IMG/VR virus record: IMGVR_UViG_3300046744_000316
Location: 1-42,153 of that record
DNA length: 42,153 nucleotides
Origin: a virus
Direction: 5' to 3' (one strand)
Every line of letters begins with the position of its first letter. The stretch's first letter is position 1. Below, piece by piece: positions 5,636-38,204 of this stretch. The position numbers and the translations under genes are program-made. A model generated the notes under the pieces. It made no database searches. It saw nothing but the letters and a program-made list of their open reading frames with translations, and had not been told where the DNA came from.

Positions 5636-5966
5636 ATGACTCTCCTGTTTCACGGAAGAAGTTTTCACTCCAAAATGCCTTGTCGTCAATCCATACATCG
5701 TAGTTCTCTTTTTTGCCTACGCTGAGTTCGTGAAATTTAGCACCCCATTCAACTAATTGATTGTTTGTTAAGTTAAAATAATCTACACCACTTACGCAGC
5801 CTCGTGCTGTCATATATTTAATTGTATGACCTGCATCGTACAATGCATTTACTCGTGCAATGCGTTCTGGCATTGGGATATGATTTGCATAATCCTTCTT
5901 GCCGCCGCTGTCTGGAATGATTACTTCCTTGCATATAGTTCCGTCGATGTCAATTACATATTTCAT
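5628..5966 (-). CDS. HAD-superfamily phosphatase-like protein, 112 aa
   Basis: The N-terminal motif I YVIDIDGTIC (3-12) gives the nucleophile Asp and acid/base Asp of HAD phosphatases; YMTARG (51-56) is motif II, and DVWIDDKAFW (90-99) fits motif IV. The protein lacks a cap domain. Relatives occur in phages and capsule clusters as small sugar- or nucleotide-phosphate phosphatases, but the substrate is unknown. It precedes and overlaps the aldolase gene. Confidence 0.75.
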   Translation of the reverse strand: MKYVIDIDGTICKEVIIPDSGGKKDYANHIPMPERIARVNALYDAGHTIKYMTARGCVSGVDYFNLTNNQLVEWGAKFHELSVGKKENYDVWIDDKAFWSENFFRETGESYE

Positions 5967-5987
5967 TAAATGTCCTTTTTATAAAAG

Positions 5988-6020
5988 AATAGCCGACCCT
6001 AGATTATAGAGACGGCTATT
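5988..6020 (-). terminator. Hairpin after queuosine-precursor transporter
   Basis: A perfect 8-bp stem, AATAGCCG and CGGCTATT, with a 17-base loop lies in the gap after the transporter stop at 6037. On the minus strand it is followed by CTTTTAT, a modest T-tract; on the plus strand by TGTTTTCTT. It probably ends or attenuates transporter transcription. Confidence 0.5.
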
Positions 6021-6036
6021 TGTTTTCTTATTTAAT

Positions 6037-6651
6037 TTATTTACTATCTTCTGAAAGTCGTCCATTAATATACTTTAGTAGTAATCCGTATGCTGGTAAG
6101 AAAATAACCAACCCTACGCCAATCTTCAGTACTGTTTGTGATCCTGCAATCTCCATCCAGTTTGCTGCCATATACTCATCTGCTGAGTTGTTGAATGCCA
6201 CCCAAAAGAAAGTGTAACTATCAATAATATTGGCTGCTACTGTTGATACAGCTGGTGCTAACCACCAAGCCTTATACTTTTCACGCAAATACTGGAAGAC
6301 ATAAACGTCTAACATTGTTCCAATAGCATAGGCTGTTGCACTTGCAAAACCAATACGCAGTGCCACTGATTGTGGTGCGCCTTCAAGCATTACAACTGCA
6401 ATGCTTCCGATGATTGCCAACGGATATGCCGCTGCAATTGTTGCTCGAGCAATATTCTTACCTAACATTCTAACTGTTAAGTCAGTTGCTAAAACAACTA
6501 ATGGGAACGTAAATGCTGCCCAAGTTAATTTGATACCAGCTATTTCTACTGGAATAGCAACTAGTGCATTACTTACTGTGATAACAACTACGTGTAATAA
6601 CACTAGTTTGAGCAACATACTTCTATCAATGTTTTTAAAAATTCCTATCAT
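6037..6651 (-). CDS. YhhQ/VUT-family queuosine-precursor transporter
   Basis: A 204-residue membrane protein with about six helices. The family signature is present: early helix with SNALVAIP, then VLATDLTVRMLGKNIAR (53-69), the conserved T-D-x-x-x-R-x-x-G of VUT/YhhQ transporters, and NIIDSYTFFWVAF (141-153). The family imports queuosine precursors such as preQ0/preQ1, which are used for tRNA Q modification or, in phages, for 7-deazaguanine DNA modification. No other queuosine or DNA-modification gene is seen here, so the use is open. GGGAG lies upstream of the ATG, and the gene follows the tmRNA by about 20 bases. Confidence 0.85.
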   Translation of the reverse strand: MIGIFKNIDRSMLLKLVLLHVVVITVSNALVAIPVEIAGIKLTWAAFTFPLVVLATDLTVRMLGKNIARATIAAAYPLAIIGSIAVVMLEGAPQSVALRIGFASATAYAIGTMLDVYVFQYLREKYKAWWLAPAVSTVAANIIDSYTFFWVAFNNSADEYMAANWMEIAGSQTVLKIGVGLVIFLPAYGLLLKYINGRLSEDSK

Positions 6652-7445: not shown

Positions 7446-8198
7446 TTAATTAGACTTTATAAGTTCGATAACAGTGGCACTAGGGTCAACGGTTCCAAAC
7501 CTGTATCTATACGGAGTTTTATGATGACTACCGTGATATAGTAAGTCAAACCAGCATAGTAAATATTTTGCCTTATCCCAATCTTGTACCTCACCGTACC
7601 AATGTCCCCAAGTATTAACTATTGAAGATTGAGTTAATACCAGTATACAATGAAAACAATACAATGAAAATAAAATTGGTGAAATGAAGAACAAACCAAG
7701 TAACACACAAACATTTATTAAGATATAGTAATCAGTAGTAAATTTCATTAATTTAGAACGTTTGTACAATAAACCGTAACTTAATTCTTGTAATTTTTTA
7801 TCTTTTGGTGTAGGCCAAATAAACCAACCTACAAAAAATGCGCCTATTCTTCCGTAAATTTTTGGAGAATGAGGATCTCCATCTTTGTCACTAAATTTAT
7901 GATGAGTGGTATGTGAAGAAACCCAAACAGGTATAGGACCAGCACCGGATAATGTTGATAAGAAGACTAATGTATAATGCCAAAATTTATTAGTTTTAAA
8001 AGATTGATGAGTAAAATATCGATGATATCCAACACTTGTTGAAAATAGGGCTAATAAATATGCAATTAATATTAATAAAATACAGACTATAAGTGGAAGT
8101 ATGTAAAAAGAATATATTATTCCTATTATTGCAGGTATATGTATTACCCACAAATGTATATAATTTTTTTGTATAGTTTGAACATTAGAGTTTTTCAT
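7446..8198 (-). CDS. Membrane fatty-acid desaturase (acyl-CoA delta-9 type)
   Basis: A 250-residue membrane protein with the three His boxes of stearoyl-CoA-type desaturases: HRYFTH (59-64), HTTHH (96-100) and HGSHH (222-226), with NTWGH (195-199) before the third. The boxes bind a di-iron centre that inserts a double bond into a saturated acyl chain; hydrophobic helices flank them at about 14-50, 72-92 and 155-190. Shorter than cellular relatives at the C-terminus, where no cytochrome b5 domain is present. Its base composition is AT-richer than its neighbours, hinting at separate acquisition. It would raise membrane fluidity of the infected host. A CATAAATA octamer lies five bases upstream of the ATG. 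Confidence 0.85.
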   Translation of the reverse strand: MKNSNVQTIQKNYIHLWVIHIPAIIGIIYSFYILPLIVCILLILIAYLLALFSTSVGYHRYFTHQSFKTNKFWHYTLVFLSTLSGAGPIPVWVSSHTTHHKFSDKDGDPHSPKIYGRIGAFFVGWFIWPTPKDKKLQELSYGLLYKRSKLMKFTTDYYILINVCVLLGLFFISPILFSLYCFHCILVLTQSSIVNTWGHWYGEVQDWDKAKYLLCWFDLLYHGSHHKTPYRYRFGTVDPSATVIELIKSN

Positions 8199-22806: not shown

Positions 22807-22814
22807 TATTTATA
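22807..22814 (-). promoter_or_regulatory. T4-late-type promoter, exact TATAAATA
   Basis: Exact minus-strand octamer followed by CAGT and the ATG at 22802. The leader would be only a few bases or the transcript leaderless. Confidence 0.5.
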
Positions 22815-23568
22815 TCATTTTTTCTATGTTGGCAATATAGTTGACCATACTATGATCAGAGAAGCTATCAATGCCACCTTGCTTGATACCCATCCACATA
22901 CCACGCCAGCGATCTTTTGTACGCTGCCAAGTTGTGAGTTTACGCTCTAAGCCGTGTGCATTCATATAATGTTCTGTGCCGTGATGCACATAACCCATAG
23001 CTCTTAATGGCACTCTAGTAACAATATCATTATTGTTTACCCAACGATGATGTGCTACATTTAAACTACGACAGTAACCACGCCATCCTACTCTTGGCGA
23101 ACCGTATGTGTACACTTCCTGTATATCTGGCATATCAACATCGCAGTTGCATCTACTAGCCATAATAGTTGTCATAGCAGCACCTAAACTATGTCCGCAA
23201 AACCAAATGTTCTTGTCTCGGTTAGTTTTACGTGCTAGGTCTTCAGATACCATAGGCCATAGCTCATCTACTTCTGCTTTGAATCCTCTGTGTACTCTAC
23301 TGACTGTTTCTGCTATCACTGGTGTTGCTTTCAAATCAGCCTTAATATCGTTAAACTCACTTGGTTGCGTTCCTCTACAAGCAATTACTAAATCTATCTT
23401 ATTCATAAATCGATATGCCTGTGCTCCGTCTTTGTTGTAAAATTCTACTGTAGTAAACCCTAATTTTCTAACATCTTTTTTTACTTGGTCTATATTGTCA
23501 TTGTATGCTATACTTGCTAGTTTTGCAAATAGTAAACTTCGTTCCATAAATTTCATTTCTGTAATCAT
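22810..23568 (-). CDS. Class 3 (alpha/beta-hydrolase) lipase
   Basis: A 252-residue alpha/beta hydrolase of the lipase-3 family. VIACRGTQ (61-68) is the oxyanion-hole strand, GHSLGAAM carries the nucleophile S127, and the triad is completed by D181 (NNNDIVTRVP) and H239 (FSDHSM); YTYGSPRVG (154-162) is family-typical. No signal peptide, so it acts in the cytoplasm or is released at lysis. It may break down host membrane lipid for lysis or for acyl supply; with a phage desaturase nearby, lipid remodelling is plausible. Confidence 0.85.
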   Translation of the reverse strand: MITEMKFMERSLLFAKLASIAYNDNIDQVKKDVRKLGFTTVEFYNKDGAQAYRFMNKIDLVIACRGTQPSEFNDIKADLKATPVIAETVSRVHRGFKAEVDELWPMVSEDLARKTNRDKNIWFCGHSLGAAMTTIMASRCNCDVDMPDIQEVYTYGSPRVGWRGYCRSLNVAHHRWVNNNDIVTRVPLRAMGYVHHGTEHYMNAHGLERKLTTWQRTKDRWRGMWMGIKQGGIDSFSDHSMVNYIANIEKMI

Positions 23569-24209: not shown

Positions 24210-25181
24210 TTAAAGGCCGTTAGGCACAATAATATAATGGATCATCAACACAAGTGCAACACTTGCACCCAAGCCTACCATCATCTTACCAAAATCCTTT
24301 GCAACAAGTGGAAACACCGACTTGGTTTTCTTCTTGCCAAAGTATGTTGCCATTGCCAACTCACGACCTGCTAACAAACCAACAAATACCCAAGTTGTAC
24401 TCATTGGAATGTCATTCAACTCTTTGAAGAAGTAAAGACACAACCAATAAAACAAGTCAATCAAGGTTGCACTTCTAACGTAGCGTGTGTTGTGTTTCTC
24501 TAGTACAATCTTTTGGATCTTACCACCACGTTCTCTAAACATAAAGAACAAGCCTGCAACAAACACAACGCTGACGAACACCATTAAGTCTGCTGGTACT
24601 TCACGTGGAAGAAACACTGCAATATTTGCAACATCGTGTGACAACCAAGTGAACCACAATCCGCCTGTTGCTACCCATTGTGCAATACGCCAAAACTTTT
24701 TATTGCCTTCGCTCACTGGTTTTGTTTCGTCATACCACTTGCCAAAGTATTTGTGTATAGCAAACCATACTGCATAAGCAAATGCGGCTGCTACACCATA
24801 ACCCATAATGCTTTTCATCAGCATCTTCTCTAGCACAAAGGTACTAGCAAACACTGACAGCACCAAGAAACTTGTGCTAACTGGCACACCCATCCTTGTA
24901 AGTGCTACAAGTATAGCAGGTGCGGCTGCGTGATACCATTGTACTTCTTGGAAAGGTATTTTGTTTAAGCGACCATAACTGATATCGCCTCCGTTCATAT
25001 ACCATCCATACCAGAGTGTATATAATAAAACAGCCGAAGCGGCTGCCCATAATACTTTAAAGTTGAATCGCTCGTTGTTTGATGCCATCCAAGTACCGAG
25101 CGTTTGTACTGAATCGTTTGCTATAACTGCATAGGCAGCTAGTAAGAAGCCAACAAGGCTCCATAGTGTGAGTAGTTCCAT
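24210..25181 (-). CDS. PiT-family inorganic phosphate transporter
   Basis: A 323-residue membrane protein with about nine helices. The duplicated PiT signatures are visible: VIANDSVQTLGTWM (20-33; family GANDxANAxGT), RMGVPVSTSFLV (96-107) and a second PMSTTWVFVGLLAGRELA (about 257-274). It would import phosphate with cations. It is shorter than most cellular PiT proteins (420-500 aa), lacking the long central loop. Phosphate is limiting in sea water and for phage DNA synthesis, so this supports infection. A palindrome-bearing leader lies upstream. Confidence 0.88.
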   Translation of the reverse strand: MELLTLWSLVGFLLAAYAVIANDSVQTLGTWMASNNERFNFKVLWAAASAVLLYTLWYGWYMNGGDISYGRLNKIPFQEVQWYHAAAPAILVALTRMGVPVSTSFLVLSVFASTFVLEKMLMKSIMGYGVAAAFAYAVWFAIHKYFGKWYDETKPVSEGNKKFWRIAQWVATGGLWFTWLSHDVANIAVFLPREVPADLMVFVSVVFVAGLFFMFRERGGKIQKIVLEKHNTRYVRSATLIDLFYWLCLYFFKELNDIPMSTTWVFVGLLAGRELAMATYFGKKKTKSVFPLVAKDFGKMMVGLGASVALVLMIHYIIVPNGL

Positions 25182-25772: not shown

Positions 25773-26033
25773 ATGACTACTTTAGTAGCAAATACCTTTG
25801 AGATTGTTGGATTACACGGCATCGCCAACTTTTTCAAAAAACTAGGTGCCGAACTCAAAAGACGTAGACGCATTCGTCAAACAATTAACGAACTATCAAG
25901 ACTTACAAACCACGAACTAAACGACATTGGTCTTAGTCGCGGAGACATTTGGTATGTTGCAAACCAGTCATACCCAAAAGCACTAAGTGGCGAAGCTGTA
26001 GAAGCAAACCGCAACTTGAGAGGTTGGGTATAA
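25773..26033 (+). CDS. DUF1127 small protein
   Basis: An 86-residue protein with the DUF1127 (YjiS-like) domain at about 31-65: RRRRIRQTINELSRLTNHELNDIGLSRGDI, the Arg-rich helix and L-x-DIG-x-x-R-x-DI signature. Alphaproteobacteria carry many such proteins, some of which bind RNA or act in phosphate and nutrient control. In a phage it may redirect host regulation. It is first of a five-gene unit with TAATG and ATGA overlaps. Confidence 0.8.
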   Translation: MTTLVANTFEIVGLHGIANFFKKLGAELKRRRRIRQTINELSRLTNHELNDIGLSRGDIWYVANQSYPKALSGEAVEANRNLRGWV

Positions 26034-26224
26034 TGGAAGCAGTAGGAAACACCCCCGTACCAACACCAAAGTTTATCAAAACACTTGGCAAATATGTCGT
26101 TGCATTTGCAATGGGCGTATGGGCATTTGGTGAATCGGCAGGCAGAGCAAGAGCAGCCGCTGAACTATCACGCCAAGGCTACTACAAAGAAGCCAAAGCA
26201 CTTATGTTGGATGACAACAGATGA
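26033..26224 (+). CDS. Small protein with GYYK motif and one hydrophobic helix, 63 aa
   Basis: ATG at 26033 shares the stop of the DUF1127 gene (TAATG). One hydrophobic helix ([18 protein letters not shown], about 18-35) and a C-terminal [19 protein letters not shown]. This last motif recurs in the 44-aa protein at 26665 (RELRSRGYYKKAEEISE). It may be a small membrane-linked adaptor for the c-subunit gene that follows; this is inference from position. Confidence 0.6.
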
Positions 26225-26866: not shown

Positions 26867-27181
26867 ATGAGCGTAGACACAAAGTACGGCGAAGCCATCT
26901 TTAAACAAACACAGGAAGTTGCTGAAATGTTTAAAGCCGCAATGCCTAAAATCACAACTAATAAAAACGGTTACGAAATCCGCACCAAAGTGCTAGAAAT
27001 GGCACAAAACAATGTATGGCAAGATTATCACGCTAAACTAGGTGCATATGAAACCACTGTGAAAAAAGACGGAGACGAAGTTGTAACAACAATTTCTATT
27101 CCTGAAGTTCCTGGTGCCGAAGCGGTGCTAGAGGCAGCTGAAAAGTTTTATGGATTTGTAGGCGGTAAACCAACTAAATAA
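26867..27181 (+). CDS. Conserved phage protein, 104 aa
   Basis: Soluble, acidic alpha/beta protein: MSVDTKYGEAIFKQTQEVAEMFKAAMPKITTNKNGYEIRTKVLEMAQNNVWQDYHAKLGAYETTVKKDGDEVVTTISIPEVPGAEAVLEAAEKFYGFV. The AGGAG ribosome site and own terminator mark a single-gene unit, likely well expressed. Proteins like this occur in marine T4-like phages; function unknown to me. Confidence 0.65.
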   Translation: MSVDTKYGEAIFKQTQEVAEMFKAAMPKITTNKNGYEIRTKVLEMAQNNVWQDYHAKLGAYETTVKKDGDEVVTTISIPEVPGAEAVLEAAEKFYGFVGGKPTK

Positions 27182-27209
27182 CGTATAGGACAACTAATTT
27201 CAAGTAGGC

Positions 27210-27225
27210 GGGCATAGCCCTTTTT
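27210..27225 (+). terminator. Short terminator after the 104-aa gene
   Basis: GGGC-ATA-GCCC followed by five T, 29 bases after the stop at 27181. The stem is short, so termination may be partial. Confidence 0.55.
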
Positions 27226-27268
27226 AACAAGCACATTTTAGAAACGCCCTCGTAGGAAACTGCGGGGG

Positions 27269-27529
27269 CTAATCTATATCTAAAGCTCTTGGATTATCGC
27301 CGCCTGCTGTTGCTAGGTACGATGCTTTATCTTTGTGTAAATCATCGCCATCTGGATATCCTGCGTCAGTTGAACTAAGATATTTTTCATCTGGCGAATT
27401 GCTATGTTGTCTGTTTAGGTGAGAAAGTATTTGTTTGAATCTACTAGGCGGTTCGCCTGGTACATCAATAACATTTGATTCTTGATCAAGGACATCCAAT
27501 AAAGCTCGAATAATATCTTGTGCTCGCAT
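27269..27529 (-). CDS. Small acidic phage protein with virion-type leader, 86 aa
   Basis: Opens MRAQDIIRALLDVLDQES, an amphipathic leader resembling those of other window proteins, followed by a hydrophilic, disordered-looking body (VPGEPPSRFKQILSHLNRQHSNSPDEKYLSSTDAGYPDGDDLHKDKASYLATAGGDNPRALDID). Likely a virion or head-associated protein; no motif. Preceded by an exact late promoter. Confidence 0.65.
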   Translation of the reverse strand: MRAQDIIRALLDVLDQESNVIDVPGEPPSRFKQILSHLNRQHSNSPDEKYLSSTDAGYPDGDDLHKDKASYLATAGGDNPRALDID

Positions 27530-27580: not shown

Positions 27581-27997
27581 ATGAACATTAAAAAAATATT
27601 TTGGGCCGGTTGTGGTTTCCTATTATTGGGCATTGCTTACTTAGGAGTAATTCTACCTGGCCTACCTTGGAGTATCTTTGTAGTAATGGCTGCATACTGT
27701 TTTGCCAAGAGCAGCAAAAGAATGCACGATTGGTTGTACAATCATAAACTGTTTGGTCCATTTTTAACAAACTGGAGTGAGAAGAAAGTATTTCCATTGA
27801 AGTTGAAATACTTTATGATCGCTACTATGGCAACCACTGTTGCATTTACTTACTTCGCAACAGGCAACGATAAGGCTGCTTTATGGACTGGTGGATTTAT
27901 GATTCTTGTTGCTGTGTATTGCTGGAGATATCCAAGCACTACTGAAGAGTATGATAGACGCAAGGCTGCTGGAGAAAAGATAGCCTGGTTTAAATAA
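27581..27997 (+). CDS. YbaN/DUF454 membrane protein
   Basis: A 138-residue protein with about four hydrophobic segments (7-24, 26-41, 77-93, 101-112). The family pattern is clear: GCGFLLLGIAYLGVILPGLPWSIFVVMAAYCFAKSSKRMHDWLYNHKLFGPFL. DUF454/YbaN proteins are widespread inner-membrane proteins of unknown role, sometimes near heme genes. GGATGA ribosome site upstream. Unusual for a phage. Confidence 0.8.
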   Translation: MNIKKIFWAGCGFLLLGIAYLGVILPGLPWSIFVVMAAYCFAKSSKRMHDWLYNHKLFGPFLTNWSEKKVFPLKLKYFMIATMATTVAFTYFATGNDKAALWTGGFMILVAVYCWRYPSTTEEYDRRKAAGEKIAWFK

Positions 27998-28001
27998 AAA
28001 G

Positions 28002-28033
28002 AAAAAAGGTAGAGGGGGTCTTCTCCCTCTACC
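28002..28033 (-). terminator. Rho-independent terminator, minus strand
   Basis: Minus strand: GGTAGAGGG / CCCTCTACC perfect 9-bp stem, 8-base loop, then TTTTTTCTTTTT. It ends the 76-aa gene (stop 28043). It lies directly after the converging DUF454 gene and could block read-through. Confidence 0.85.
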
Positions 28034-28042
28034 AATTGATGT

Positions 28043-28273
28043 TTACTTGTGTTGCCAGATGGCCCACAGTACCCACACAGCAATTAATCCCATAATTCCT
28101 TCTGAACCAAGCGAACCTAACATTGCTGTTACGTTTGCCACTACACTCATTTCTGGCATAAATGGCATATTGCCTAGTCCTAGAACTTCTAAGATGATTG
28201 CAAGAGCTGCAATGCTAACACCAACGTTTGCTAATGCGCCTGCCCACTCTTTTACTTTATTAAGCATTTCCAT
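28043..28273 (-). CDS. Small two-helix membrane protein, 76 aa
   Basis: Two hydrophobic segments: WAGALANVGVSIAALAIILEVLGLG (10-34) and GIMGLIAVWVLWAIW (59-73), with a short Pro/Met-rich loop. GGAGG lies upstream; the second ATG two codons in is also possible. Its layout fits a small phage holin or a conserved cyanophage-like membrane peptide. It has its own TTTAAATA octamer and own terminator, so it is a separate unit, as expected of lysis or takeover peptides. Confidence 0.6.
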   Translation of the reverse strand: MEMLNKVKEWAGALANVGVSIAALAIILEVLGLGNMPFMPEMSVVANVTAMLGSLGSEGIMGLIAVWVLWAIWQHK

Positions 28274-28315
28274 TTGAAAATACCTCCTTCTTTTGTGCTA
28301 CATTATGTAGCAGAG

Positions 28316-28385: not shown

Positions 28386-28393
28386 GATAAATA
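28386..28393 (+). promoter_or_regulatory. Late-type promoter octamer before ALA synthase
   Basis: GATAAATA 25 bases before the ATG at 28418, first position of the glycan cluster. The leader is very AT-rich with weak GAGAG ribosome site. Confidence 0.45.
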
Positions 28394-28417: not shown

Positions 28418-29617
28418 ATGATAGATTTATCCCCGTTTGAAAAAGTAATTGATGACTTGAAGCAAGAAGGCAAGTATAGAATTTTCAATGATATACTGCG
28501 TGAACGTGGAGACTTTCCAAAAGCAATTTGGTATGGTCCGTATAATATTAAAAATATTGTAAACTGGTGCAGCAATGATTACTTAGGAATGGGACAACAT
28601 AAAGTTGTAATAGATGCGATGCATACTGCATTGGACCAAACAGGTGCTGGTTCAGGTGGTACAAGAAACATTGGTGGTACATCGCACTATCACGTTGCAC
28701 TAGAATTTGAACTAGCGTCTTTGCATAGCAAGGAAAGGGCGTTGTTGTTCTCTAGTGCATTTGTCGCAAATGAATGGAGTCTAATTGCTTTAAGCAAAAT
28801 CATTCCCAACATTGTGTTTTTGAGTGACTCAAAGAATCACGCAAGCCTCATACAGGGTATCCGACACAGTGGTGCTGATAAATTAGTATGGCAGCACAAT
28901 GATATGGAGCAATTAGAGCAACGATTGGTCGAGAGTACCGCCAGCGGACAAGTCCCCTGCATTGTTTTCGAATCTATATATAGTATGGATGGCGATGTAA
29001 GCCCAATTGAAGCAATTTGCGACCTTGCCGACCGTTATGGAGCAATAACTTATATCGACGAAGTCCACGCTGTAGGATTGTATGGAGAAGCTGGAGCAGG
29101 GTATTTAGAAAAATTGAATATTCAAGATAGAGTTGATATTGTAAACGGAACACTCGGCAAAGCATTTGGCATCACAGGAGGTTATATTGCCGGAAAAGGG
29201 GTAGTCATAGACGCTGTCCGGAGTGTGGCTAGTGGATTTATTTTTACTACGTCACTGTCACCTGTGCTTTGTGCTGGAGCGTTGGCTAGTATAAAGTATT
29301 TAAAAGACCACAACGAACTCCGCGAACAGCATCAGGCTCAAGCAATGAAGTTAAAAACTAAATTGATTGAAGCTGGCGTGGAGGTTTTAGATAAAGCCTG
29401 TACTCATATCGTTCCTGTGATGATCCGTGATGCCAAAGTATGCAAAGCAATCAGTGATTGTTTATTAGATGACCACGGCATCTATGTTCAACCAATCAAC
29501 TATCCAACGGTTGCTGTGGGTGAGGAGCGTCTCCGTTTTGCTCCAACTCCACTTCATACTGACGCTATGATTGAAGAGTGTGTTATGGCAGTTACTAAAT
29601 GTCTCAATTCACTGTAG
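28418..29617 (+). CDS. hemA: 5-aminolevulinate synthase
   Basis: A 399-residue fold-type I PLP enzyme. Features that mark ALA synthase over other alpha-oxoamine synthases: the N-terminal YRIFNDI (R21 region for succinyl-CoA), GTRNIGGTSHYHVALE (81-96), FESIYSMDGD (184-193), TYIDEVHAVGLYG (211-223) with the PLP-ring Asp D214, NGTLGKAFG with the PLP Lys K248, FIFTTSLSP, and YVQPINYPTV. The pattern is alphaproteobacterial, and K248 has the same number as in Rhodobacter. It condenses glycine and succinyl-CoA to 5-aminolevulinate, the first step of heme in the C4 pathway. It opens the plus-strand glycan cluster and overlaps the next gene by 19 bases. It may boost host heme, or make ALA for another conjugate. 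Confidence 0.93.
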   Translation: MIDLSPFEKVIDDLKQEGKYRIFNDILRERGDFPKAIWYGPYNIKNIVNWCSNDYLGMGQHKVVIDAMHTALDQTGAGSGGTRNIGGTSHYHVALEFELASLHSKERALLFSSAFVANEWSLIALSKIIPNIVFLSDSKNHASLIQGIRHSGADKLVWQHNDMEQLEQRLVESTASGQVPCIVFESIYSMDGDVSPIEAICDLADRYGAITYIDEVHAVGLYGEAGAGYLEKLNIQDRVDIVNGTLGKAFGITGGYIAGKGVVIDAVRSVASGFIFTTSLSPVLCAGALASIKYLKDHNELREQHQAQAMKLKTKLIEAGVEVLDKACTHIVPVMIRDAKVCKAISDCLLDDHGIYVQPINYPTVAVGEERLRFAPTPLHTDAMIEECVMAVTKCLNSL

Positions 29618-30834
29618 AAGAAAAACGTATAGGACGTCTTGAAAGACAAAGAGACGCACAACACAATAAATCAAAAAAGGTATTGTCTCAAAAACTTATT
29701 ACCAAAAATTCTATAGAAGATTTTAATTGGTTGTTTCATAAAGAGCATATAAAATTAATAAAGAACAATAATAAAAAATTATTAATAATAGAAACACCTT
29801 TTCATTTAGCGCACAGCGATGTACCGTTTGATCAAGTAATTTATTTTAAAAACATTGTAAAAACATTTGAACATCTGCTACCTGATATTAAAAATGGTAA
29901 AATAAAAATAATATACTTGTTCGCAGATGCTTGGGGAACAGTAAACAATAACGAGTCACACAAAAGCTATAGCGGAGCACTTTTGGCATTAGACTTGTAC
30001 GATGTATTATACCAAGCCAACAAAAAAGCTGGAATTTTGGAACATAGTGTTTTTTGTACTGGTACTAGCTTGAAAGGTGTATTACAACAAGAAGATTGGC
30101 CTATTGTTTATTACAACGAACCTTTTAATAGATATTTTACAATTGGAGAAGACTTGCGTGTATCCAGTAGGTTTTTTAAAAAACATTTTTTGTGGTTAAA
30201 CAGAAGAACAAGAGATCATAAATTATATGCATTACATCAAGCTCATAAACACAAAATTTTTGATAATTCTTTGTATACATTCCACGACTTTGAAAATGAA
30301 ACTAATGAAGTTTATGAATTGAAATTAAAAAAATATACTCAAGATATAGATTTAGATTTCTTAAGTTATAAAACTTTGCCTGATGTATTAGATAATAATT
30401 ATGATTTAAAATATGATAATCAGCATCGAGAAACATTACTAAATTTAAAAAAACACGCAAATAAATGCTACGCAGAAATAGTAAGTGAATATATGGGTAG
30501 CGATCATAAAGTATTCTTGACAGAAAAAATTTCAAGAAGTATTGTAATGGGTAAACCTTTTCTTGTAATAGGCGATAGAGGAATGTTAGCCGAATTGCAA
30601 ACACTTGGTTTTCGCACGTTTGATGATTTTTGGGACGAAAGCTATGATAACCTACCAACTGTAAAAGAACGTATAGATGCTGTAATGTTTATATTAAAAG
30701 ATATACAGGAAAATCTATTGCACCTTAAAGGATATCAAGATCATATGCTTGAAATACTACAGCATAATAAAAAACATTACTTTGGTTCATACAAACAATC
30801 ACAATTAAAATACTTCAGAGAAATGATTAAATGA
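29599..30834 (+). CDS. Putative glycosyltransferase, 411 aa
   Basis: A large, Lys- and Asn-rich protein whose C-terminal third holds FLTEKISRSIVMGKPFLVIGDRGMLAELQTLGFRTFDDFWDESYD (about 307-351). This is a GT-B nucleotide-sugar-binding pattern common in phage and bacterial glycan clusters. The N-terminal half (IETPFHLAHSD ... IIYLFADAWG) is a second Rossmann-like domain. Very AT-rich codon use compared with the hemA gene just before it suggests separate origin. Acceptor and sugar unknown. Overlaps both neighbours. Confidence 0.55.
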   Translation: MSQFTVEEKRIGRLERQRDAQHNKSKKVLSQKLITKNSIEDFNWLFHKEHIKLIKNNNKKLLIIETPFHLAHSDVPFDQVIYFKNIVKTFEHLLPDIKNGKIKIIYLFADAWGTVNNNESHKSYSGALLALDLYDVLYQANKKAGILEHSVFCTGTSLKGVLQQEDWPIVYYNEPFNRYFTIGEDLRVSSRFFKKHFLWLNRRTRDHKLYALHQAHKHKIFDNSLYTFHDFENETNEVYELKLKKYTQDIDLDFLSYKTLPDVLDNNYDLKYDNQHRETLLNLKKHANKCYAEIVSEYMGSDHKVFLTEKISRSIVMGKPFLVIGDRGMLAELQTLGFRTFDDFWDESYDNLPTVKERIDAVMFILKDIQENLLHLKGYQDHMLEILQHNKKHYFGSYKQSQLKYFREMIK

Positions 30835-31373
30835 CGCCTAAGTTTGTGATTGATAATGTGGTTAATATGAGTCTATGGCAAGACACTGTTTGGATAAATC
30901 ATAGTAAAAAATTGTTTTTTGTTCCTATATGGCGAAATGGTAACACAGAGTTTATGTATGCTGCTGATAAATTTGGTTTTAAACTTGAAATTTTAGATAA
31001 CGTAGATTATATTGGATTCGCCTTCATCCGTAATCCTAATTTACGTATTGCTGGACAAATATGGCGAGCAATGCAAAATCAAGGATTGTCTTTTAACCAA
31101 TGCATCAAAAATCTAAATACAGATCTCGATCCACACTTCCGAACACAACATAGTTTTGTAGAAAAATATAATATAGAATATTATCTTGATCTTGATAATT
31201 TACAACTAACAGACAACGTAGATATCAATGAAATAATTTATCATATGCAAAAAATTAGTGATCCACGTTGCAAAACCAAAAATAAATCTAAATTAGAATC
31301 TAGATTAATTTACCATTCTTATTTAATAAAAACGATATACAAATTTGACTTTTTACTGTATAATAAATTATGA
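30831..31373 (+). CDS. Possible sulfotransferase-fold protein, 180 aa
   Basis: KLFFVPIWRNGNTEFMYAADKFGF (27-50) and IGFAFIRNPNLRIAGQIWRAM (61-81) resemble the 5'- and 3'-phosphate motifs of PAPS sulfotransferases, the second being the better match (RNP-x-x-R). The P-loop-like part lacks the usual K/R-x-G-T/S. The C-terminus is basic and helical. It is AT-rich like its neighbour. The assignment is weak; it could be a degenerate or novel transferase. Confidence 0.4.
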   Translation: MTPKFVIDNVVNMSLWQDTVWINHSKKLFFVPIWRNGNTEFMYAADKFGFKLEILDNVDYIGFAFIRNPNLRIAGQIWRAMQNQGLSFNQCIKNLNTDLDPHFRTQHSFVEKYNIEYYLDLDNLQLTDNVDINEIIYHMQKISDPRCKTKNKSKLESRLIYHSYLIKTIYKFDFLLYNKL

Positions 31374-32560
31374 TTATAAATGAAGCAAAAACTTGTAGAG
31401 TCTGTGCAAACAATATTAAACAGGTTGCTGACTTTGGAGAAATACATATAAACGATTTTCCTTTAGCACAAGGCACGAGCCCAGGCAGTGCGCCTATGGT
31501 ATTGGACCAGTGCATCAGCTGCAACCTTGTGCAACTTCGTCATACAGTTGATCCTAAGATATTATATGGAGAACATTATTGGTATCAAAGTGGTCTCAAC
31601 AATAAAATAAAACAAAATCTATTTGATATTGCTACAACTGTAAATGAAATTACCGAACCAGGAGATATAGTTTTAGATATTGGAGCAAACGACGGAACAC
31701 TATTATCAGCAGTTAGCAAAGATCGAACACGCATTGCCTGTGAACCTGCTCCAAATTTTTTAAATGATTTAGAACCACATAGTGATTATATTATAAATGA
31801 TTTATGGAACCACCAACTTATGCCCGATCAAAGTGTGGCAAGTGTAATTACTGCAATAGGAATGTTTTACGATATGGATGATCCAAACACTTTTATCAAT
31901 AGTGTTAGAGAGTGTTTACGTGCAGATGGTGTATTCATTGCACAGCTAATGACACTTGCTCCAATGCTTAGAATGAATGACATTGGTAATGTTTGTCACG
32001 AACATTTAGAATATTATAGTTACAAAAGCCTTGTTACTCTTTTTGAAAGGAATGGTTTAGAAATTGTTAAGGTTATTGAGAATGATATCCAAGGCGGAAG
32101 TTACCAAATTTATGCTACACACTATAACAAAGGCAGTGTTGAATACACCGAAGACATTTCAACAGTGGGAGAATTTTTTGAGTCTGTAAACAACAACAGC
32201 CGACAATTAAAAGATCTACTTTCAATGTATGCAAAGCAAGGCAAACGCTGTTATGTTTATGGTGCCAGCACAAAAGGCAACACAATATTACAGCTATGGA
32301 ATCTAAAAGAATATTTTGACGGAGCAGCCGAAATACATCCAGATAAGATTGGTAGATATACTGTGGGCACAGATATTCCTATTGTTGCTGAAGAAGAAGC
32401 ACTGTCCAAAGCAGATGTTTTATTTGTTCCTAACTATGGATTCAAAGATGTGTTTACTAAAAAGTTAGATATGTGGATACGCAAAGGTGGCAAATTACTA
32501 TTTGCTATGCCAACTGTAGAAGAAATAAACAATGAAAACATTAATACTAGCAACACCTAG
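31370..32560 (+). CDS. NDP-sugar C-methyltransferase type three-domain methyltransferase
   Basis: A 396-residue protein with three parts: an N-terminal zinc motif CRVCAN...CISCNLVQL (9-57), a SAM-binding domain with VLDIGANDGTLLSAV (about 99-113) and ITAIGMFYDMDDP, and a C-terminal Rossmann-like domain (YVYGASTKGNTILQLW, about 297-312). This is the layout of sugar C-3 methyltransferases such as TylC3 and NovU. It probably methylates a dTDP/GDP-4-keto sugar before transfer. Overlaps both neighbours. Confidence 0.8.
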   Translation: MIINEAKTCRVCANNIKQVADFGEIHINDFPLAQGTSPGSAPMVLDQCISCNLVQLRHTVDPKILYGEHYWYQSGLNNKIKQNLFDIATTVNEITEPGDIVLDIGANDGTLLSAVSKDRTRIACEPAPNFLNDLEPHSDYIINDLWNHQLMPDQSVASVITAIGMFYDMDDPNTFINSVRECLRADGVFIAQLMTLAPMLRMNDIGNVCHEHLEYYSYKSLVTLFERNGLEIVKVIENDIQGGSYQIYATHYNKGSVEYTEDISTVGEFFESVNNNSRQLKDLLSMYAKQGKRCYVYGASTKGNTILQLWNLKEYFDGAAEIHPDKIGRYTVGTDIPIVAEEEALSKADVLFVPNYGFKDVFTKKLDMWIRKGGKLLFAMPTVEEINNENINTSNT

Positions 32561-33245
32561 AAGCGGTTCACACGCTTATGCAAGTCTTTGGCCTATTGAT
32601 TATAGCGAAGTAATGAATATCGAAGACTTACTGTTACCAAGGTTAGAACACAATGGAAAAATTGATTACAATGTTTGTAGCGACGATTTCTTACACGCAT
32701 TGAACACATTTGATTTTCAACGTGCTTATGATCTGCGACCAGTTATGCAAATTCAACATTTCGTTCTAACTTTTGATAGCTCGCTTATAAAAACAAAAAC
32801 TAAACAATATCCTGATAAAGAAACATTTTTAAATGAACACAAAAATAGATGGTTAAAAATAAAAGATAGACAAGACTGGACCATTAAATTAATTGAATAC
32901 CAAGGTGTTCCAGAAAGCATTATTTTTGATATGATAAAGTGTTCAGACAACACAGTCGCACTTAAACGCAAAGATTTGAAAGCACAAGCATTAAGTCTTT
33001 GTGTAACCAATATGACACAAAATTGGCATAACAGTACAGAATCAATAAAACTAGATTATGATTTGTTCAAACGTAGTTTAGAAAGTATAATGCAAAACAA
33101 CAATTGGGTAGACAAATTCAATGTAGATACTATATACTATGAAGACTTAGATTTATCTAAAAGCAAAATTAAAAAAAATAAAAACAAAATAGATTATGAT
33201 GAGCAAAAACTGAATAAAATATATGTTGAAACAATTAATAGCTGA
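32532..33245 (+). CDS. Sulfotransferase-like protein, 237 aa
   Basis: Opens MKTLILATPRSGSHAYASLW, the PAPS 5'-phosphosulfate loop (TPRSGSH). A second motif TVALKRKDLKAQALSLCVTNMTQNWHN (about 141-167) fits the 3'-phosphate region (R-x-x-L). The rest is helical and Lys-rich. Probable sulfation of a glycan or lipid. Overlaps both neighbours by 22-29 bases. Confidence 0.6.
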   Translation: MKTLILATPRSGSHAYASLWPIDYSEVMNIEDLLLPRLEHNGKIDYNVCSDDFLHALNTFDFQRAYDLRPVMQIQHFVLTFDSSLIKTKTKQYPDKETFLNEHKNRWLKIKDRQDWTIKLIEYQGVPESIIFDMIKCSDNTVALKRKDLKAQALSLCVTNMTQNWHNSTESIKLDYDLFKRSLESIMQNNNWVDKFNVDTIYYEDLDLSKSKIKKNKNKIDYDEQKLNKIYVETINS

Positions 33246-33879
33246 TACAGACTTTAGCGAAGCATACCGTATAGAAAGCAGTACTTATTTTAAAAATATT
33301 ACTTCTACCGACCTTGATTATTGGAACGTACACGAAGAAATATTTTCTACAGTGGAAAAAGATGCTAAAATATTAGATATCGGAACTTGGTTTGGTATAG
33401 TTCCGTGGGGACTGCAACAACTTGGCTATAAAAATGTGCAATGCACAGAGTGCGAAGCACATAGTCAAAGCAAGAAAGAAAGTTTTAACAAATTACATCG
33501 ACATTTTAATATATCGCCATTTGAACTACATATAAAACCTCAAACAAATTTTATTTTACCACAAAAATATGATGTGATAACGATAACAAAAACCAATTTA
33601 CACTGGAAGACAGAACAGGTTGTACATTACAATGGAAGTGAAGTGAATACTGAATGGCAAGTGCTTGGCGCTGATAACAAACAACACACATTTTTTTCAT
33701 TGTACAAAATTGAGGATTGGCAATATCTTTTCAATAAAGCATTTGATTATCTCAATCCAGGAGGTAGGTTACTAATCAATCCAGAGCCAGCTTTTGATAA
33801 TATAGATTACTATGCAGATACAAATAAGTTCTTACTCCAATACAAGAAGGATAATCATTTGGAGATAAAAAAAGAATGA
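33223..33879 (+). CDS. SAM-dependent methyltransferase, 218 aa
   Basis: A class I methyltransferase with motif I AKILDIGTWFGIVPWGLQQLG (48-68), post-I VQCTECEAHSQSK (73-85), motif II-like YDVITITKTNLHW and AFDYLNPGGRLLINPEP near the end. The substrate is unknown; by context it acts on a sugar or small metabolite of the cluster. Overlaps the next gene by four bases. Confidence 0.7.
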   Translation: MLKQLIADTDFSEAYRIESSTYFKNITSTDLDYWNVHEEIFSTVEKDAKILDIGTWFGIVPWGLQQLGYKNVQCTECEAHSQSKKESFNKLHRHFNISPFELHIKPQTNFILPQKYDVITITKTNLHWKTEQVVHYNGSEVNTEWQVLGADNKQHTFFSLYKIEDWQYLFNKAFDYLNPGGRLLINPEPAFDNIDYYADTNKFLLQYKKDNHLEIKKE

Positions 33880-34772
33880 GTTATTATATAGCAGGTGATA
33901 GGGGACTTGTAGGTAGACACTATCGTAAATTTAAAAAAGATGCTAGAGGCGGTAACACCAGTAACACCGATTATTCTCATTACGTCAGCACGTACACACA
34001 TTTATTAGCAGGGCCCAAACCAACTCATCTTGTAATTAATGCTGCGACTGTTGGAGGATTGCAAGAGGACTTAGATGATAGTTTTAACTTGCTAATGAGA
34101 AATTTAAAAATACAAAACAATCTATTTGACGTAGCAGCAGAAGCAGGTATACAAAGAGTGTTATTACAAGGAAGCACTTGTAGTTATCCGGAAACAGGCC
34201 CTCAGCCTTTTATGGAGTTACAACTGTTATCTGGAAAACCTTTTGAAGGTTATATGACTACTGCACTTCCTAAACTTGTGGGTATGTATCAATGTAGAGC
34301 AAGTAATGATAAGAATAATACCAAATGGCGTACAGCAATTTGTACAAATATGTTTGGTCCTGGCGACAGGACTGGAGAACACGCTCACGTTGTTGGTGCC
34401 CTTATGCAAAAGTTTGTAGATGCTGTGAAGAAAGATTACACTGAAGTTGAAATATGGGGAGACGGCAGTCAAAGCAGAGATATTCTGTATATCAAAGATG
34501 CAGTTCGTGCAATGGATTTAACATTAAACAACGATATGTTTGACACAGTTAACATTGCAAGCGGTGTAGAAATTACCATCAAAGAACTAGCTGAACATTT
34601 AAAGACAATTAGTGGATTCAACGGGCGTTTATTCTATAACACCGATAAGCCTACAGGCATAATGAAACGAAGCATAAACATTGAAAGATTAAAATCGTTA
34701 GGATGGAAAGCAGAATATACAATGAAAGAAGCATTAGAACAAACTTACAGGTGGTACTATGATAACACCTAA
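33876..34772 (+). CDS. GDP-L-fucose-synthase-like extended SDR, Thr in place of catalytic Tyr
   Basis: A 298-residue NAD(P)-binding protein: YIAGDRGLVGRHY (4-16) is the Rossmann loop, AATVGG (56-61), LLQGSTCSYP (96-105) like the GSSCIYP of GDP-fucose synthase, and late ASGVEITIKELAE. The catalytic YxxxK should appear as YAxAK, but the sequence is GYMTTALPK (125-133): K133 has T129 four before it, and the nearest Tyr is Y126. This could be a degraded site, a three-residue insertion that moves the Tyr, or altered chemistry. It likely makes or mimics a 6-deoxysugar. Overlaps the next gene by 14 bases. Confidence 0.7.
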   Translation: MSYYIAGDRGLVGRHYRKFKKDARGGNTSNTDYSHYVSTYTHLLAGPKPTHLVINAATVGGLQEDLDDSFNLLMRNLKIQNNLFDVAAEAGIQRVLLQGSTCSYPETGPQPFMELQLLSGKPFEGYMTTALPKLVGMYQCRASNDKNNTKWRTAICTNMFGPGDRTGEHAHVVGALMQKFVDAVKKDYTEVEIWGDGSQSRDILYIKDAVRAMDLTLNNDMFDTVNIASGVEITIKELAEHLKTISGFNGRLFYNTDKPTGIMKRSINIERLKSLGWKAEYTMKEALEQTYRWYYDNT

Positions 34773-35829
34773 TGCACATATGCATCCTGTTTACGATGCC
34801 AACGAAAAAAATGCTGTAACTGATTATTTAAACAGCGGCGGCTGGATAATGGAACACACAAAAACTAGAGAACTAGAAAAAATGATTTGTGATTACACTG
34901 GTGCTAAATTTGCACATATGGTTCCTAGTGCTACAATGGGATTATTGCTCTGTAGTATGTTATCCAATATCAAACACAACGAACGTTTTGATTGTCCTGC
35001 ATACACGCAAGCTGCAACAGCTAACGGTGCAATGCTGCTAGGTGGTAAGCCCCGTTTTGTAGATGTAGATCCAACAACGTTTACTTTAAATTTTAATCAT
35101 ATAAGAAATAGAGTCGTTTTTATTACAAGTATCAATGGCAGAACTCCTGCTCATTACGAACATAAAATAAAAATGTTACAAGATGACGGACATTTTGTTA
35201 TTGAAGATGCAGCACAGGCATTGGGCAGCTGGCATAGAGATAGACACGTTGGTACCATTGGACACGTAGGCGTGTTTAGTTTCGGGGCACCTAAAATTAT
35301 CACAACCGGACAAGGTGGTTGTATAGTAACAAATGATATTGGTTTAAGTGAACGAATACACGCTATCAAAAACTTTGGTAGGACTGTAGGAGTTGGAGAA
35401 GTTTACAACGTAATGGGTATGAACTTTAAATTTACTGATTTACAGGCAGCATTTGGAATTGAACAAATGAAAAAATTACCAGAGATCATTGAACGTAAAA
35501 AACACATTTATGATTTTTATAGGAATAAATTAAAAGATGTATGTGATTTTGTTCCAACTGATTTAAATAAGGTTACACCAACTTATCCAGAAATACTTGT
35601 CAATGATAGAGACAAACTTGCAAAACATCTAGGCAATTTTGGTTACGGCACTAGGGCTGTATACTCTAATCTAGGAGCACAACCGTACCTGCGTAATAGA
35701 ACAATACCGTGGGCTCCAAATACAGATTACATTGCTGCTAGAGGATTGCAGATTCCGAGTGCAAACGATTTACTAGATTATGATATGAATGAACTTTGCA
35801 CTGTTATCAAAGAGCACTATAAACTTTAA
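34759..35829 (+). CDS. DegT/DnrJ/EryC1/StrS-family sugar aminotransferase
   Basis: A 356-residue PLP protein. FVIEDAAQALGS (about 149-160) holds the PLP Asp, GVFSFGAPKIITTGQGGCIV (about 172-191) the Schiff-base Lys, and HAIKNFGRT, NFKFTDLQAAFGIEQM are family landmarks. It transfers an amino group to a keto-sugar nucleotide, as in perosamine or 4-amino-sugar synthesis. The enzyme couples well with the SDR upstream. It converges with and overlaps the epimerase on the other strand at 35807-35829. Confidence 0.88.
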   Translation: MITPNAHMHPVYDANEKNAVTDYLNSGGWIMEHTKTRELEKMICDYTGAKFAHMVPSATMGLLLCSMLSNIKHNERFDCPAYTQAATANGAMLLGGKPRFVDVDPTTFTLNFNHIRNRVVFITSINGRTPAHYEHKIKMLQDDGHFVIEDAAQALGSWHRDRHVGTIGHVGVFSFGAPKIITTGQGGCIVTNDIGLSERIHAIKNFGRTVGVGEVYNVMGMNFKFTDLQAAFGIEQMKKLPEIIERKKHIYDFYRNKLKDVCDFVPTDLNKVTPTYPEILVNDRDKLAKHLGNFGYGTRAVYSNLGAQPYLRNRTIPWAPNTDYIAARGLQIPSANDLLDYDMNELCTVIKEHYKL

Positions 35830-36700
35830 TTAGATTGTCTATGCCTTGCTCAAGACTTTCAGTGGCATAAAAGTCTAATGTTCTTATCTTGCTGTAGTCT
35901 ACAAAATAATTTCTTCCATCTTGGTCGTGTTCAAGTGTTGTATTTTTTTCAAAATTCCAATTAGGCAATCTATTTTTTATTATTTGGCAAACTTCAAACT
36001 TTGTAAAATTTAATTTATTATCACCAACGTTCCATACTTGTCCTTGCATTATTTCAAATTGTTCTAAAGCCATTGCAAATGCTTTTACTAAATCATTTAC
36101 TGCTAGAAATGTTCTTTTATGGTGCCCTTCGTAAAGTATCATAGATTGGTTGTTACAGGCTTTGCGTACAAAATCATTTATTAACAAATCGTGTCTAAGT
36201 CTATTGCTTACGCCAAATGCTGTCGCAGGCCTAAGTATGACGCTGGTTTTGTTTAAATAGTTCTCGCCTAATAGTTTGTATTCAGCATAGGTGCTTATAG
36301 GATTGGCTTGGATATGTTCTGTGCATACACAATCCAATGATCCATAGACACTGCCTGTGCTTGCATATATAAAAGGCTTTTCTAGTGCAGCATCTATAAT
36401 CCTTTTAGTGCCTTCAACATTTACTTTGTAAGCCAAGTCAGGTTCCAAGTTACAAGCAGGAAAGCCAATAATGCCAGCTAAATGTATTATTGCATCGGCT
36501 TGTTTTATTATAGGTTCAACTTCCGGTGTGCAAATATCTACACAATGTAGATTAAAGTTATCGTTGTCCACTATGTTGAGTACAGGTTCAATACCCCACT
36601 TGAGCCAATCTATACAATCAACAGTATGACCTTGACGTAAAAAATATTCACTGAGCCTGCATCCTATATAACCTGCGCCGCCTGTTATTGCTATTCGCAT
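35807..36700 (-). CDS. NAD-dependent epimerase/dehydratase (extended SDR)
   Basis: From ATG 36698-36700 (MRIAITGGAGYIGCRLSEYFLRQG), a 297-residue protein with the GGAGYIG cofactor loop, IIHLAGI, YASTGSVYG (catalytic Ser/Thr) and TYAEYKLLGE (Y-x-x-x-K catalytic pair). The active site is intact, unlike that of the plus-strand SDR. A UDP/GDP-sugar 4-epimerase or reductase is likely. Overlaps the cupin gene by ten bases. Confidence 0.85.
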   Translation of the reverse strand: MRIAITGGAGYIGCRLSEYFLRQGHTVDCIDWLKWGIEPVLNIVDNDNFNLHCVDICTPEVEPIIKQADAIIHLAGIIGFPACNLEPDLAYKVNVEGTKRIIDAALEKPFIYASTGSVYGSLDCVCTEHIQANPISTYAEYKLLGENYLNKTSVILRPATAFGVSNRLRHDLLINDFVRKACNNQSMILYEGHHKRTFLAVNDLVKAFAMALEQFEIMQGQVWNVGDNKLNFTKFEVCQIIKNRLPNWNFEKNTTLEHDQDGRNYFVDYSKIRTLDFYATESLEQGIDNLIKVYSAL

Positions 36701-37065
36701 TTGGTAATTGGTTCCTCGCAATCATTCCAACGTTTTGTTAACATAGCAATCATTTTACAGTCAGCAGTTGGATAAAATGTATGCGGCACACCCAATGGCA
36801 AGTATATACAATCACCAGCACTAACTGGTGTGACTAATTCTTTACCATCTGTCATTTCAGTATACACCCCTTCTCCTTCTACAAACATAATATATTCGTC
36901 GAACTCCTTGTGATAATGATGTCCTCTGACAGCACCTTTGAGTGTAACAATATAATTCCATTCAACTATATTATATTGTTCAGGATAGAATGTTTGTATA
37001 ATACCTCTACCATCTTTGAATGTCATAGGATTTATTTCTGGCTCTATCTTCACAATACGCTTCAT
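36691..37065 (-). CDS. Cupin, sugar 3,4-/3,5-epimerase-isomerase type
   Basis: A 124-residue single-domain cupin. Motif 1: GAVRGHHYHKEFDEYIMFVEGEG (44-66), motif 2: GDCIYLPLGVPHTFYP (83-98). It resembles WxcM/FdtA-like sugar isomerases and dTDP-4-dehydrorhamnose epimerases, which isomerise keto sugars in surface-glycan routes. It is first of a two-gene minus unit with the epimerase. Divergent from the SGNH gene with only ten bases between the starts. Confidence 0.75.
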   Translation of the reverse strand: MKRIVKIEPEINPMTFKDGRGIIQTFYPEQYNIVEWNYIVTLKGAVRGHHYHKEFDEYIMFVEGEGVYTEMTDGKELVTPVSAGDCIYLPLGVPHTFYPTADCKMIAMLTKRWNDCEEPITKCE

Positions 37066-37075
37066 AAGTATATAT

Positions 37076-37711
37076 ATGAATTTAGCTGTTGGTGGATGTA
37101 GTTTTTCTGATTACCGTTATGACATCTACCCTTATGGTAGACAGGTTGCAGATCATTTTGGTTTGGATTATTTTCACGCTGCGGCTTGTGCTGGCAGTAA
37201 TCACAGAATATGGCGTGTATTGACCAAAGCAATTATGGAAAAAGATCTTGTCAGTGGCGATACCATTTTATTACAGTATACCATATTGGATAGAAAAGAA
37301 GTTTGGAGCCCAGATCCAAAAAGATTCTATTCACCTTACGAAGAACTAGACGATTATTGGAACAGCGGTAAGTTATTTAGATTGACTGCACATAGTGCGG
37401 AATACAGTCAAAACGTACACGAAAAACAATATAGTAATTTACATAATAGATTTACAGACTACGAATATAACCAAGAGGTTTTTATAACACAACACACCGC
37501 ATTTCAAGCACTATGTGATATAAACAATATTAAATGTGTTCACATTAATACTCAGTATGATGCTGATCATAGGATAGCAGGAGTAAATCTTGAAAGTATA
37601 CTCAATGATGTCTTGTTACGTATGGACAGTGGTCATATGAATCAGCGTGGTCACACATTGGCAGCATCACGAATTATAAAGCATTTAGATCCAGCCATTG
37701 ATTCCAACTAG
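37076..37711 (+). CDS. SGNH/GDSL-hydrolase-like protein
   Basis: From ATG 37076 (MNLAVGGCSFSDYRYDIYPYGRQVADHFG). Block I is GCSFSDY (nucleophile Ser), HAAACAGSNHRIWR holds block II/III-type Gly and Asn, and the C-terminal DSGHMNQRGHTLAASRII holds the catalytic D-x-x-H. Members deacylate or acylate sugars and lipids. It may remove or move acetyl groups on the glycan made by the cluster. It converges with the HNH gene and overlaps it by 38 bases. Confidence 0.7.
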   Translation: MNLAVGGCSFSDYRYDIYPYGRQVADHFGLDYFHAAACAGSNHRIWRVLTKAIMEKDLVSGDTILLQYTILDRKEVWSPDPKRFYSPYEELDDYWNSGKLFRLTAHSAEYSQNVHEKQYSNLHNRFTDYEYNQEVFITQHTAFQALCDINNIKCVHINTQYDADHRIAGVNLESILNDVLLRMDSGHMNQRGHTLAASRIIKHLDPAIDSN

Positions 37712-38204
37712 GATGTCTAACTTGAATTGGTAATTGTTTGCGTTTTCTAACCAGTTCGTAATAACCGGGTGCATAAGGTTTGTATCTAGGGCGCCATTCA
37801 GCACCTACTTTGTTACCTTTGCGCCAGTTGCAAGCTTTACAGGCTGTTATACAATTTTCCCAACTGGTACCACCGCCTTTGCTTATGGGCTTTACGTGAT
37901 CTGTAGTTAGGTCAACTCTTTTAAAAGTATCTCCACAATAACCGCACTCATACAAATCCCGCAAGTACAAATTTGTTTTACTGAATCTAGGCTTGCGGGT
38001 CTTATGCATATACTGCTTTAACATTATCACAGCGGGCACCCGTGTTTCCCAATTGGGACTCCGAACCAACCAATCATCATACCACTCAAGCACATTACAC
38101 TTGTCGTGGTACATATACATTACAGCTTCTTTCCACTGTACAATACTTAAAGGTAAAAATGAAACGGGTGCAGCATCTGCATTGAGAACTAGTGTATCAC
38201 TCAT
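37674..38204 (-). CDS. HNH endonuclease
   Basis: A 176-residue protein with an HNH (McrA-like) domain: CGYCGDTFKRVDLTTDHVKPISKGGGTSWENCITACKACNWRKGN (about 93-137), with two CxxC zinc pairs and the H, N, H positions. The N-terminal part (LVLNADAAPVSFLPLSIVQWKEAVMYMYHDK) matches the family's usual leader. Common in marine T4-like phages; may be a homing or DNA-processing nuclease. Exact late promoter just upstream. Confidence 0.85.
   Translation of the reverse strand: MSDTLVLNADAAPVSFLPLSIVQWKEAVMYMYHDKCNVLEWYDDWLVRSPNWETRVPAVIMLKQYMHKTRKPRFSKTNLYLRDLYECGYCGDTFKRVDLTTDHVKPISKGGGTSWENCITACKACNWRKGNKVGAEWRPRYKPYAPGYYELVRKRKQLPIQVRHPSWNQWLDLNAL

Follow-up and report, generated by a model that had tools for sequence, protein, structure and literature searches.

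Genes for 5-aminolevulinate synthase (ALAS) have been described in phages. Wegner et al. (2024; PMC11480375) reported a phage gene set of valaS, hemO and pcyX, and the enzyme of the freshwater phage CB_2 makes 5-aminolevulinate (ALA). A later study tracked the abundance and transcripts of viral alaS in an estuary (PMC13390420). Two other described systems are close enough for comparison: HemA of Rhodobacter capsulatus (2bwn) and the two-gene hemO-pcyX cassette of marine phages (PcyX_EBK42635, 5owg).

The stretch of DNA analysed here, referred to as the window, is the complete linear virus record IMGVR_UViG_3300046744_000316 of IMG/VR, with a length of 42,153 bases. It contains the following gene:

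28418..29617, plus strand: 5-aminolevulinate synthase (ALAS, viral-type AlaS), 399 aa, ATG start, PLP lysine K248 (TIGR01821, PDB 7x98/2bwn, residue map, tree)

The window ALAS belongs to the phage type already published in 2024 (PMC11480375). Like valaS, it is phage-encoded, falls in a clade apart from bacterial ALAS, keeps the catalytic residues, and shares approximately 53-58% identity with alphaproteobacterial enzymes (PMC11480375). As in CB_2, the genome also contains hemO and pcyA/X, arranged with ALAS as a "broken cassette" (PMC11480375). Unlike valaS, compared by its description, the window gene is followed by a glycan block and preceded by a DUF454 gene (PMC11480375); the main text of that study mentions neither DUF454 nor alternative oxidase and glycan genes. 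R. capsulatus HemA is 53% identical to the window protein, has the same length and fold, and agrees with it in every catalytic residue examined, whereas the viral enzyme stands outside the cellular clade, carries V341 in place of His342 and has a shorter C-terminus. With the marine-phage cassette the virus shares a hemO adjoining a ferredoxin-dependent bilin reductase (FDBR) gene whose closest structure is PcyX. It differs in that the ALAS gene stands 37 kb from the pair.

The reading preferred here, with a probability of roughly 0.88, is that the window virus carries a valaS feeding a heme-to-bilin route through host enzymes, and that the glycan genes downstream are independent of it. The virus thereby joins the published phage group steering tetrapyrrole metabolism.

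Identity and relatives of the viral ALAS

The gene at 28418-29617 is an intact ALAS gene under purifying selection; its product appears functional and would catalyse the initial reaction of heme and bilin pigment synthesis. In a profile search, the ALAS equivalog model TIGR01821 matched the protein with 566.6 bits (cut-off 338.55). The top matches among solved structures are the ALAS entries 7x98 and 2bwn. Identity to the R. capsulatus enzyme is 53% across 383 residues. The residues kept are R21, N54, T83, R84, N85, I86, S137, H142, K156, S189, D214, V216, H217, T245, K248, T365 and R374 (Rhodobacter numbering). Across 53 viral-type ALAS sequences, K156 is missing from one and the others never vary. 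The preliminary description of this DNA had seen a full-length ALAS with all catalytic motifs, and this view stands: every residue checked is present, and the loss of key residues in homologues, named there as a sign against it, was not found. Pairwise dN/dS values between the window ALAS and its near relatives are about 0.09-0.13 (dN 0.06-0.17, dS 0.5-1.9), which argues for purifying selection on the protein. The formation of ALA is predicted from the sequence and by analogy with the CB_2 AlaS, whose activity has been published (PMC11480375).

The enzyme might instead be another alpha-oxoamine synthase, such as KBL, BioF, a serine palmitoyltransferase or an enzyme with a novel acyl specificity. 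These proteins have a common fold family, and the window ALAS does match the KBL and BioF models below their cut-offs. However, the ALAS model alone is passed, since the rival alpha-oxoamine synthase models all stay under their own thresholds (333 bits against 460 for glycine C-acetyltransferase, 314 against 426 for BioF). The residues of ALAS, including R21, T83, N85, I86 and T365, are retained, and in the tree the protein clusters with ALAS, apart from the three rows of other alpha-oxoamine synthases. A place among non-ALA acyl-amino transferases, which had also been named as a sign against ALAS, was therefore not observed. On family scores, residues and tree, a non-ALAS acyltransferase was ruled out, and we regard it as highly improbable.

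The published phage valaS are described as lacking the heme-regulatory His342 and Cys400 (PMC11480375). The position of Rhodobacter His342 is occupied by V341 in the window protein; C395 lies near the C-terminus, and there is no clear equivalent of Cys400. The loss of His342 was considered as a peculiarity of the viral enzyme, but this idea was dropped, as the residue is mostly absent from the sampled cellular rows as well.

The preliminary description had proposed a phylogeny against cellular HemA. In the smaller, careful tree, viral-type ALAS form one group against alphaproteobacterial ALAS with a support of 100/100, and the window ALAS lies inside this group and outside the cellular clade; the larger tree, with alphaproteobacterial ALAS, is a quick version and also shows the viral-type sequences as one group. 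The grouping is in agreement with Wegner et al. (PMC11480375). A search of IMG/VR for relatives yielded at least 599 encoding stretches, the best 80 of which are 70-100% identical; the viral sample is biased towards the window, from which the search started. The group of ALAS-encoding viruses is thus large, yet no ALAS of the window clade was found in 50,697 deposited phage records, where the best matches reach at most 37% and annotations, when given, read KBL or BioF. At the DNA level, the window had no match among known phage records. Only one of 16 long related records encodes a T4-type capsid (PF07068), and no phage family is therefore named.

Heme oxygenase, bilin reductase and the use of ALA

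A longer record, IMGVR_UViG_3300048548_000653 (76,977 bases; G001), represents the same virus. Positions 1-39930 of the window correspond to 37048-76977 of G001; identity is 99.99% over one stretch of 21,197 bases and 100% in the stretches tested at both ends. Two genes are found in this record:

G001 27712-28134, strand not given: heme oxygenase (hemO), with weak but clear matches to solved heme oxygenases
G001 26943-27497, strand not given: FDBR, adjoining hemO (structure match to PcyX)

The best structure match of the FDBR is the phage PcyX 5owg with 250 bits, followed by PcyA with 53 bits. A point against the bilin route is the distance: since the pair is 37 kb away, it is not co-transcribed with ALAS in the window virus. 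In one relative (L075, in record G039), whose ALAS falls with that of the window in one clade of eight rows (100/91), ALAS, FDBR and hemO lie inside about 2.5 kb. Among 41 longer related records, hemO is present in 15, FDBR in 15 and both in 14; the 26 records in which no hemO was detected also count against this route, although they are mostly fragments. In one related locus (L111 8134-8947, minus strand), genes resembling a ClpS adaptor and a small heat-shock protein, recognised by eye, are located directly beside hemO.

ALA dehydratase (ALAD), the next enzyme after ALAS, was detected in none of the 16 long related viral records, so host enzymes must carry ALA onward. The window ALAS would act as a phage-encoded ALA synthase (valaS), and the ALA dehydratase and later enzymes of the host would convert its product to heme in the infected cell. 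The heme oxygenase of the virus may then open heme to biliverdin, which its PcyX may reduce to phycoerythrobilin. We infer that the protein is active, that the flux passes through host enzymes and that the phage benefits from it. The supply of tetrapyrroles is the most likely role of the window ALAS. Such a supply during infection was already suggested in the preliminary description, and it gains from the presence of hemO and pcyX in the same virus, the three-gene cassette of L075 and the activity of the CB_2 enzyme (PMC11480375).

Alternatively, the main task of ALAS could be to supply respiratory heme proteins in the infected cell, bilin synthesis being of minor importance or lacking, as Wegner et al. 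also proposed (PMC11480375). Many ALAS-bearing viral records are indeed without hemO or FDBR. Moreover, alternative oxidase (PF01786, 249-278 bits) occurs in seven of the 41 ALAS-bearing viral records (L030 4457-5050, minus strand; G016-G019, G021, G028 and G032), a hint that respiration is affected by phages of this group. Alternative oxidase, however, contains no heme and argues equally for by-passing heme enzymes, and the window virus itself carries the heme-consuming hemO and pcyX. A search of the literature on alternative oxidase as a phage auxiliary metabolic gene found no paper devoted to the topic. The theme of pseudoazurin, COX and ATP synthase, on which the preliminary description had drawn, is weak here: the scanned window proteins gave a single COX4_pro_2 match, below the Pfam cut-off, and no match to pseudoazurin or ATP synthase. 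Respiration as the main purpose is considered rather unlikely. The heme-to-bilin route, to which hemO and pcyX point, leaves room for it as a second outlet: heme may also feed respiration, and support of respiration is possible alongside bilin formation.

Surroundings of the gene: promoter-like motif and exchange site

One feature precedes the gene and two follow it:

28386..28393, plus strand: late-promoter-like GATAAATA, one mismatch from TATAAATA, 32 nt upstream of the ALAS start (sequence; 11 related loci)
29599..37065, no strand assigned: glycan block, AT-rich, swappable, outside the ALAS system (Pfam/NCBIfam; absent in L003/L004; GC3)
37674..38204, minus strand: HNH endonuclease (family f9), which in relatives forms the conserved right-hand edge of the variable site (PF01844; neighbour survey)

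A late-type promoter had been claimed for ALAS. Alone, GATAAATA is weak, as one third of the shuffles equal it, but it keeps the same position at -32 in 11 related loci. Exact copies of TATAAATA are not enriched in the whole window (seven against 5.6 expected). A T4-like late promoter appears plausible from the sequence, because five of these seven sites lie just upstream (5-72 nt) of a minus-strand gene.

The glycan block encodes an unknown or glycosyltransferase-like protein, a Methyltransf_14 (C-methyltransferase-like) protein, GDP-fucose-synthase-like and other NDP-sugar epimerases (two in number), a DegT aminotransferase and a cupin. The overlap of ALAS with a glycosyltransferase-like gene, reported from the first inspection, is real: the first gene of the block starts with an ATG at 29599, within the 3' end of ALAS. 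This arrangement, with seven genes on one strand and a pathway of the amino-sugar type, makes it tempting to assume that ALAS provides a precursor, either ALA itself or a cyclised C5N unit, which the downstream genes would build into a glycan or lipid decoration.

The nearest relatives among the matches listed (L003 and L004, 91% ALAS identity) speak against such a role. Their DNA matches the window from 27326 onwards until ALAS ends, at 29604, and the match resumes at 37083; the block at 29599-37065 is absent. The sequence AAATGTCT at the 3' end of ALAS is common to the window and both relatives, and the ATG within it is the start of the next gene in either case. In L003/L004, an unrelated gene uses this overlapping ATG; its product is SGNH-hydrolase-like by eye, without a family match. 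The block also differs from ALAS in base composition: its GC3 is 0.21-0.29, while ALAS has 0.35 and several core genes reach 0.36-0.41. The preliminary description had noted GC-richer codon use in ALAS; the difference exists, but the outliers are the glycan genes, and ALAS matches the other genes of the phage. Furthermore, the partner kept by ALAS across 80 viral loci is DUF454 and not the glycan genes, and the block showed no acyl-activating or amide synthase gene of the kind that C5N would call for.

The role of ALA in a glycan, likewise put forward in the preliminary description, was therefore rejected by synteny and has very little probability left; a tempting but wrong link is thereby removed. 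To say that ALAS heads a glycan cluster is true of its position but misleading as to partnership. Because of the junction in L003/L004 and the differing GC3, the segment from ALAS to the HNH gene is regarded as a cargo-exchange site. The glycan block is an independent exchangeable unit, a newcomer entering via the ATG in the 3' end of ALAS.

Several other genes of the window were recorded. A membrane protein with a PiT-like motif, NDSVQTLGT (24210-25181, minus strand), is conserved in related viruses, where the DNA identity reaches 87%; it has no Pfam match and is absent from deposited phages. A DUF1127 gene is located at 25773-26033 (plus strand), and the gene at 25949-26224 (plus strand) belongs to a family whose members look DUF1127-like in relatives and which is among the commonest in related viral loci. 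On the minus strand, there are genes for a TauD-like dioxygenase (3497-4408), a vitamin-uptake transporter-like protein (Vut_1, 6037-6651), a fatty acid desaturase-like protein (7446-8198) and a class 3 lipase (22810-23568).

DUF454 as neighbour of ALAS and a phage-type ALAS in a louse symbiont

Upstream of ALAS and its promoter-like motif, three features were identified:

27581..27997, plus strand: DUF454 (YbaN-like) small inner-membrane protein gene, upstream of ALAS here (PF04304, 104 bits; adjacency in relatives)
28008..28033, no strand assigned: terminator-like hairpin 3' of DUF454 (sequence)
28043..28273, minus strand: small membrane protein, 76 aa, family f19, between DUF454 and ALAS, with an equally placed homologue in L003/L004 (translation; f19 neighbours)

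A survey of gene neighbourhoods in phages, as advised in the preliminary description, covered 80 viral loci, with duplicates of the window left out, and the conserved neighbour of ALAS that emerged is DUF454. It lies on the ALAS strand within two genes of ALAS in 58 of the 80 loci, and downstream of it in 53 of those 58. In 49 of the 80, the start of DUF454 falls between -23 and +13 nt from the ALAS stop. In the window virus, the hairpin at 28008..28033 suggests that DUF454 and ALAS are probably separate transcripts. Another family in the survey (f36, plus strand, 28047-28277) was discarded as a spurious open reading frame opposite the real f19 gene.

DUF454 corresponds to YbaN in E. coli, a direct member of the Fur regulon with unknown function (PMC7157518; PMC10164565), and a DUF454 gene is up-regulated under iron restriction in Avibacterium (PMC7970244). 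Both observations make a role of DUF454 in iron or heme plausible. Its proximity to ALAS gives this protein a strong genomic link to ALA synthesis. Among the 58 alphaproteobacterial genomes compared, DUF454 exceeded the cut-off in 18, and none of those also having ALAS has the two genes close together; the link is therefore phage-specific so far.

One phage-type ALAS is found in a bacterium:

L084 (WNLJ01000010.1) 5001-6188, strand not given: phage-type ALAS of Neisseriaceae bacterium PsAf (tree)

PsAf is a symbiont of the louse Polyplax serrata (PMC9376444). Its ALAS falls inside the viral clade, together with that of a further locus, L078 (98/93). Read by eye, the gene is flanked by a patatin-like gene on one side and by outer-membrane efflux/ABC genes on the other, with surA and lptD nearby, and these surroundings place it in the bacterial chromosome. 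In the PsAf genome, ALAD is present, and no N-terminal domain of glutamyl-tRNA reductase and no HemL over the cut-off were detected; as the assembly is a draft (BUSCO 85.8%, PMC9376444), the absence of the reductase is suggestive only. So is, accordingly, the replacement of the C5 route by the phage-type ALAS. If true, it would support the ALAS function of the viral clade, and the case suggests that a phage ALAS can be the sole ALA source of a cell.

Both the adjacency of ALAS and DUF454 and the phage-type ALAS in the PsAf chromosome seem unreported. We tentatively propose, at somewhat less than even odds for the two parts jointly, that many uncultured phages possess ALAS and DUF454 as a conserved, translationally coupled pair in which DUF454 serves the handling of iron or heme, and that in this betaproteobacterial louse symbiont the glutamyl-tRNA route has given way to a phage-type ALAS.

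More viral-type ALAS genes occur in metagenome bins (L085, L132, L082 and L083). Two of them, L082 and L083, show the gene order of the phages and seem to be phage contigs that were binned with bacteria. Rhodobacteraceae Water_Bin34 (G045), listed with L085 and L132, has three viral-type ALAS copies beside its own ALAS.
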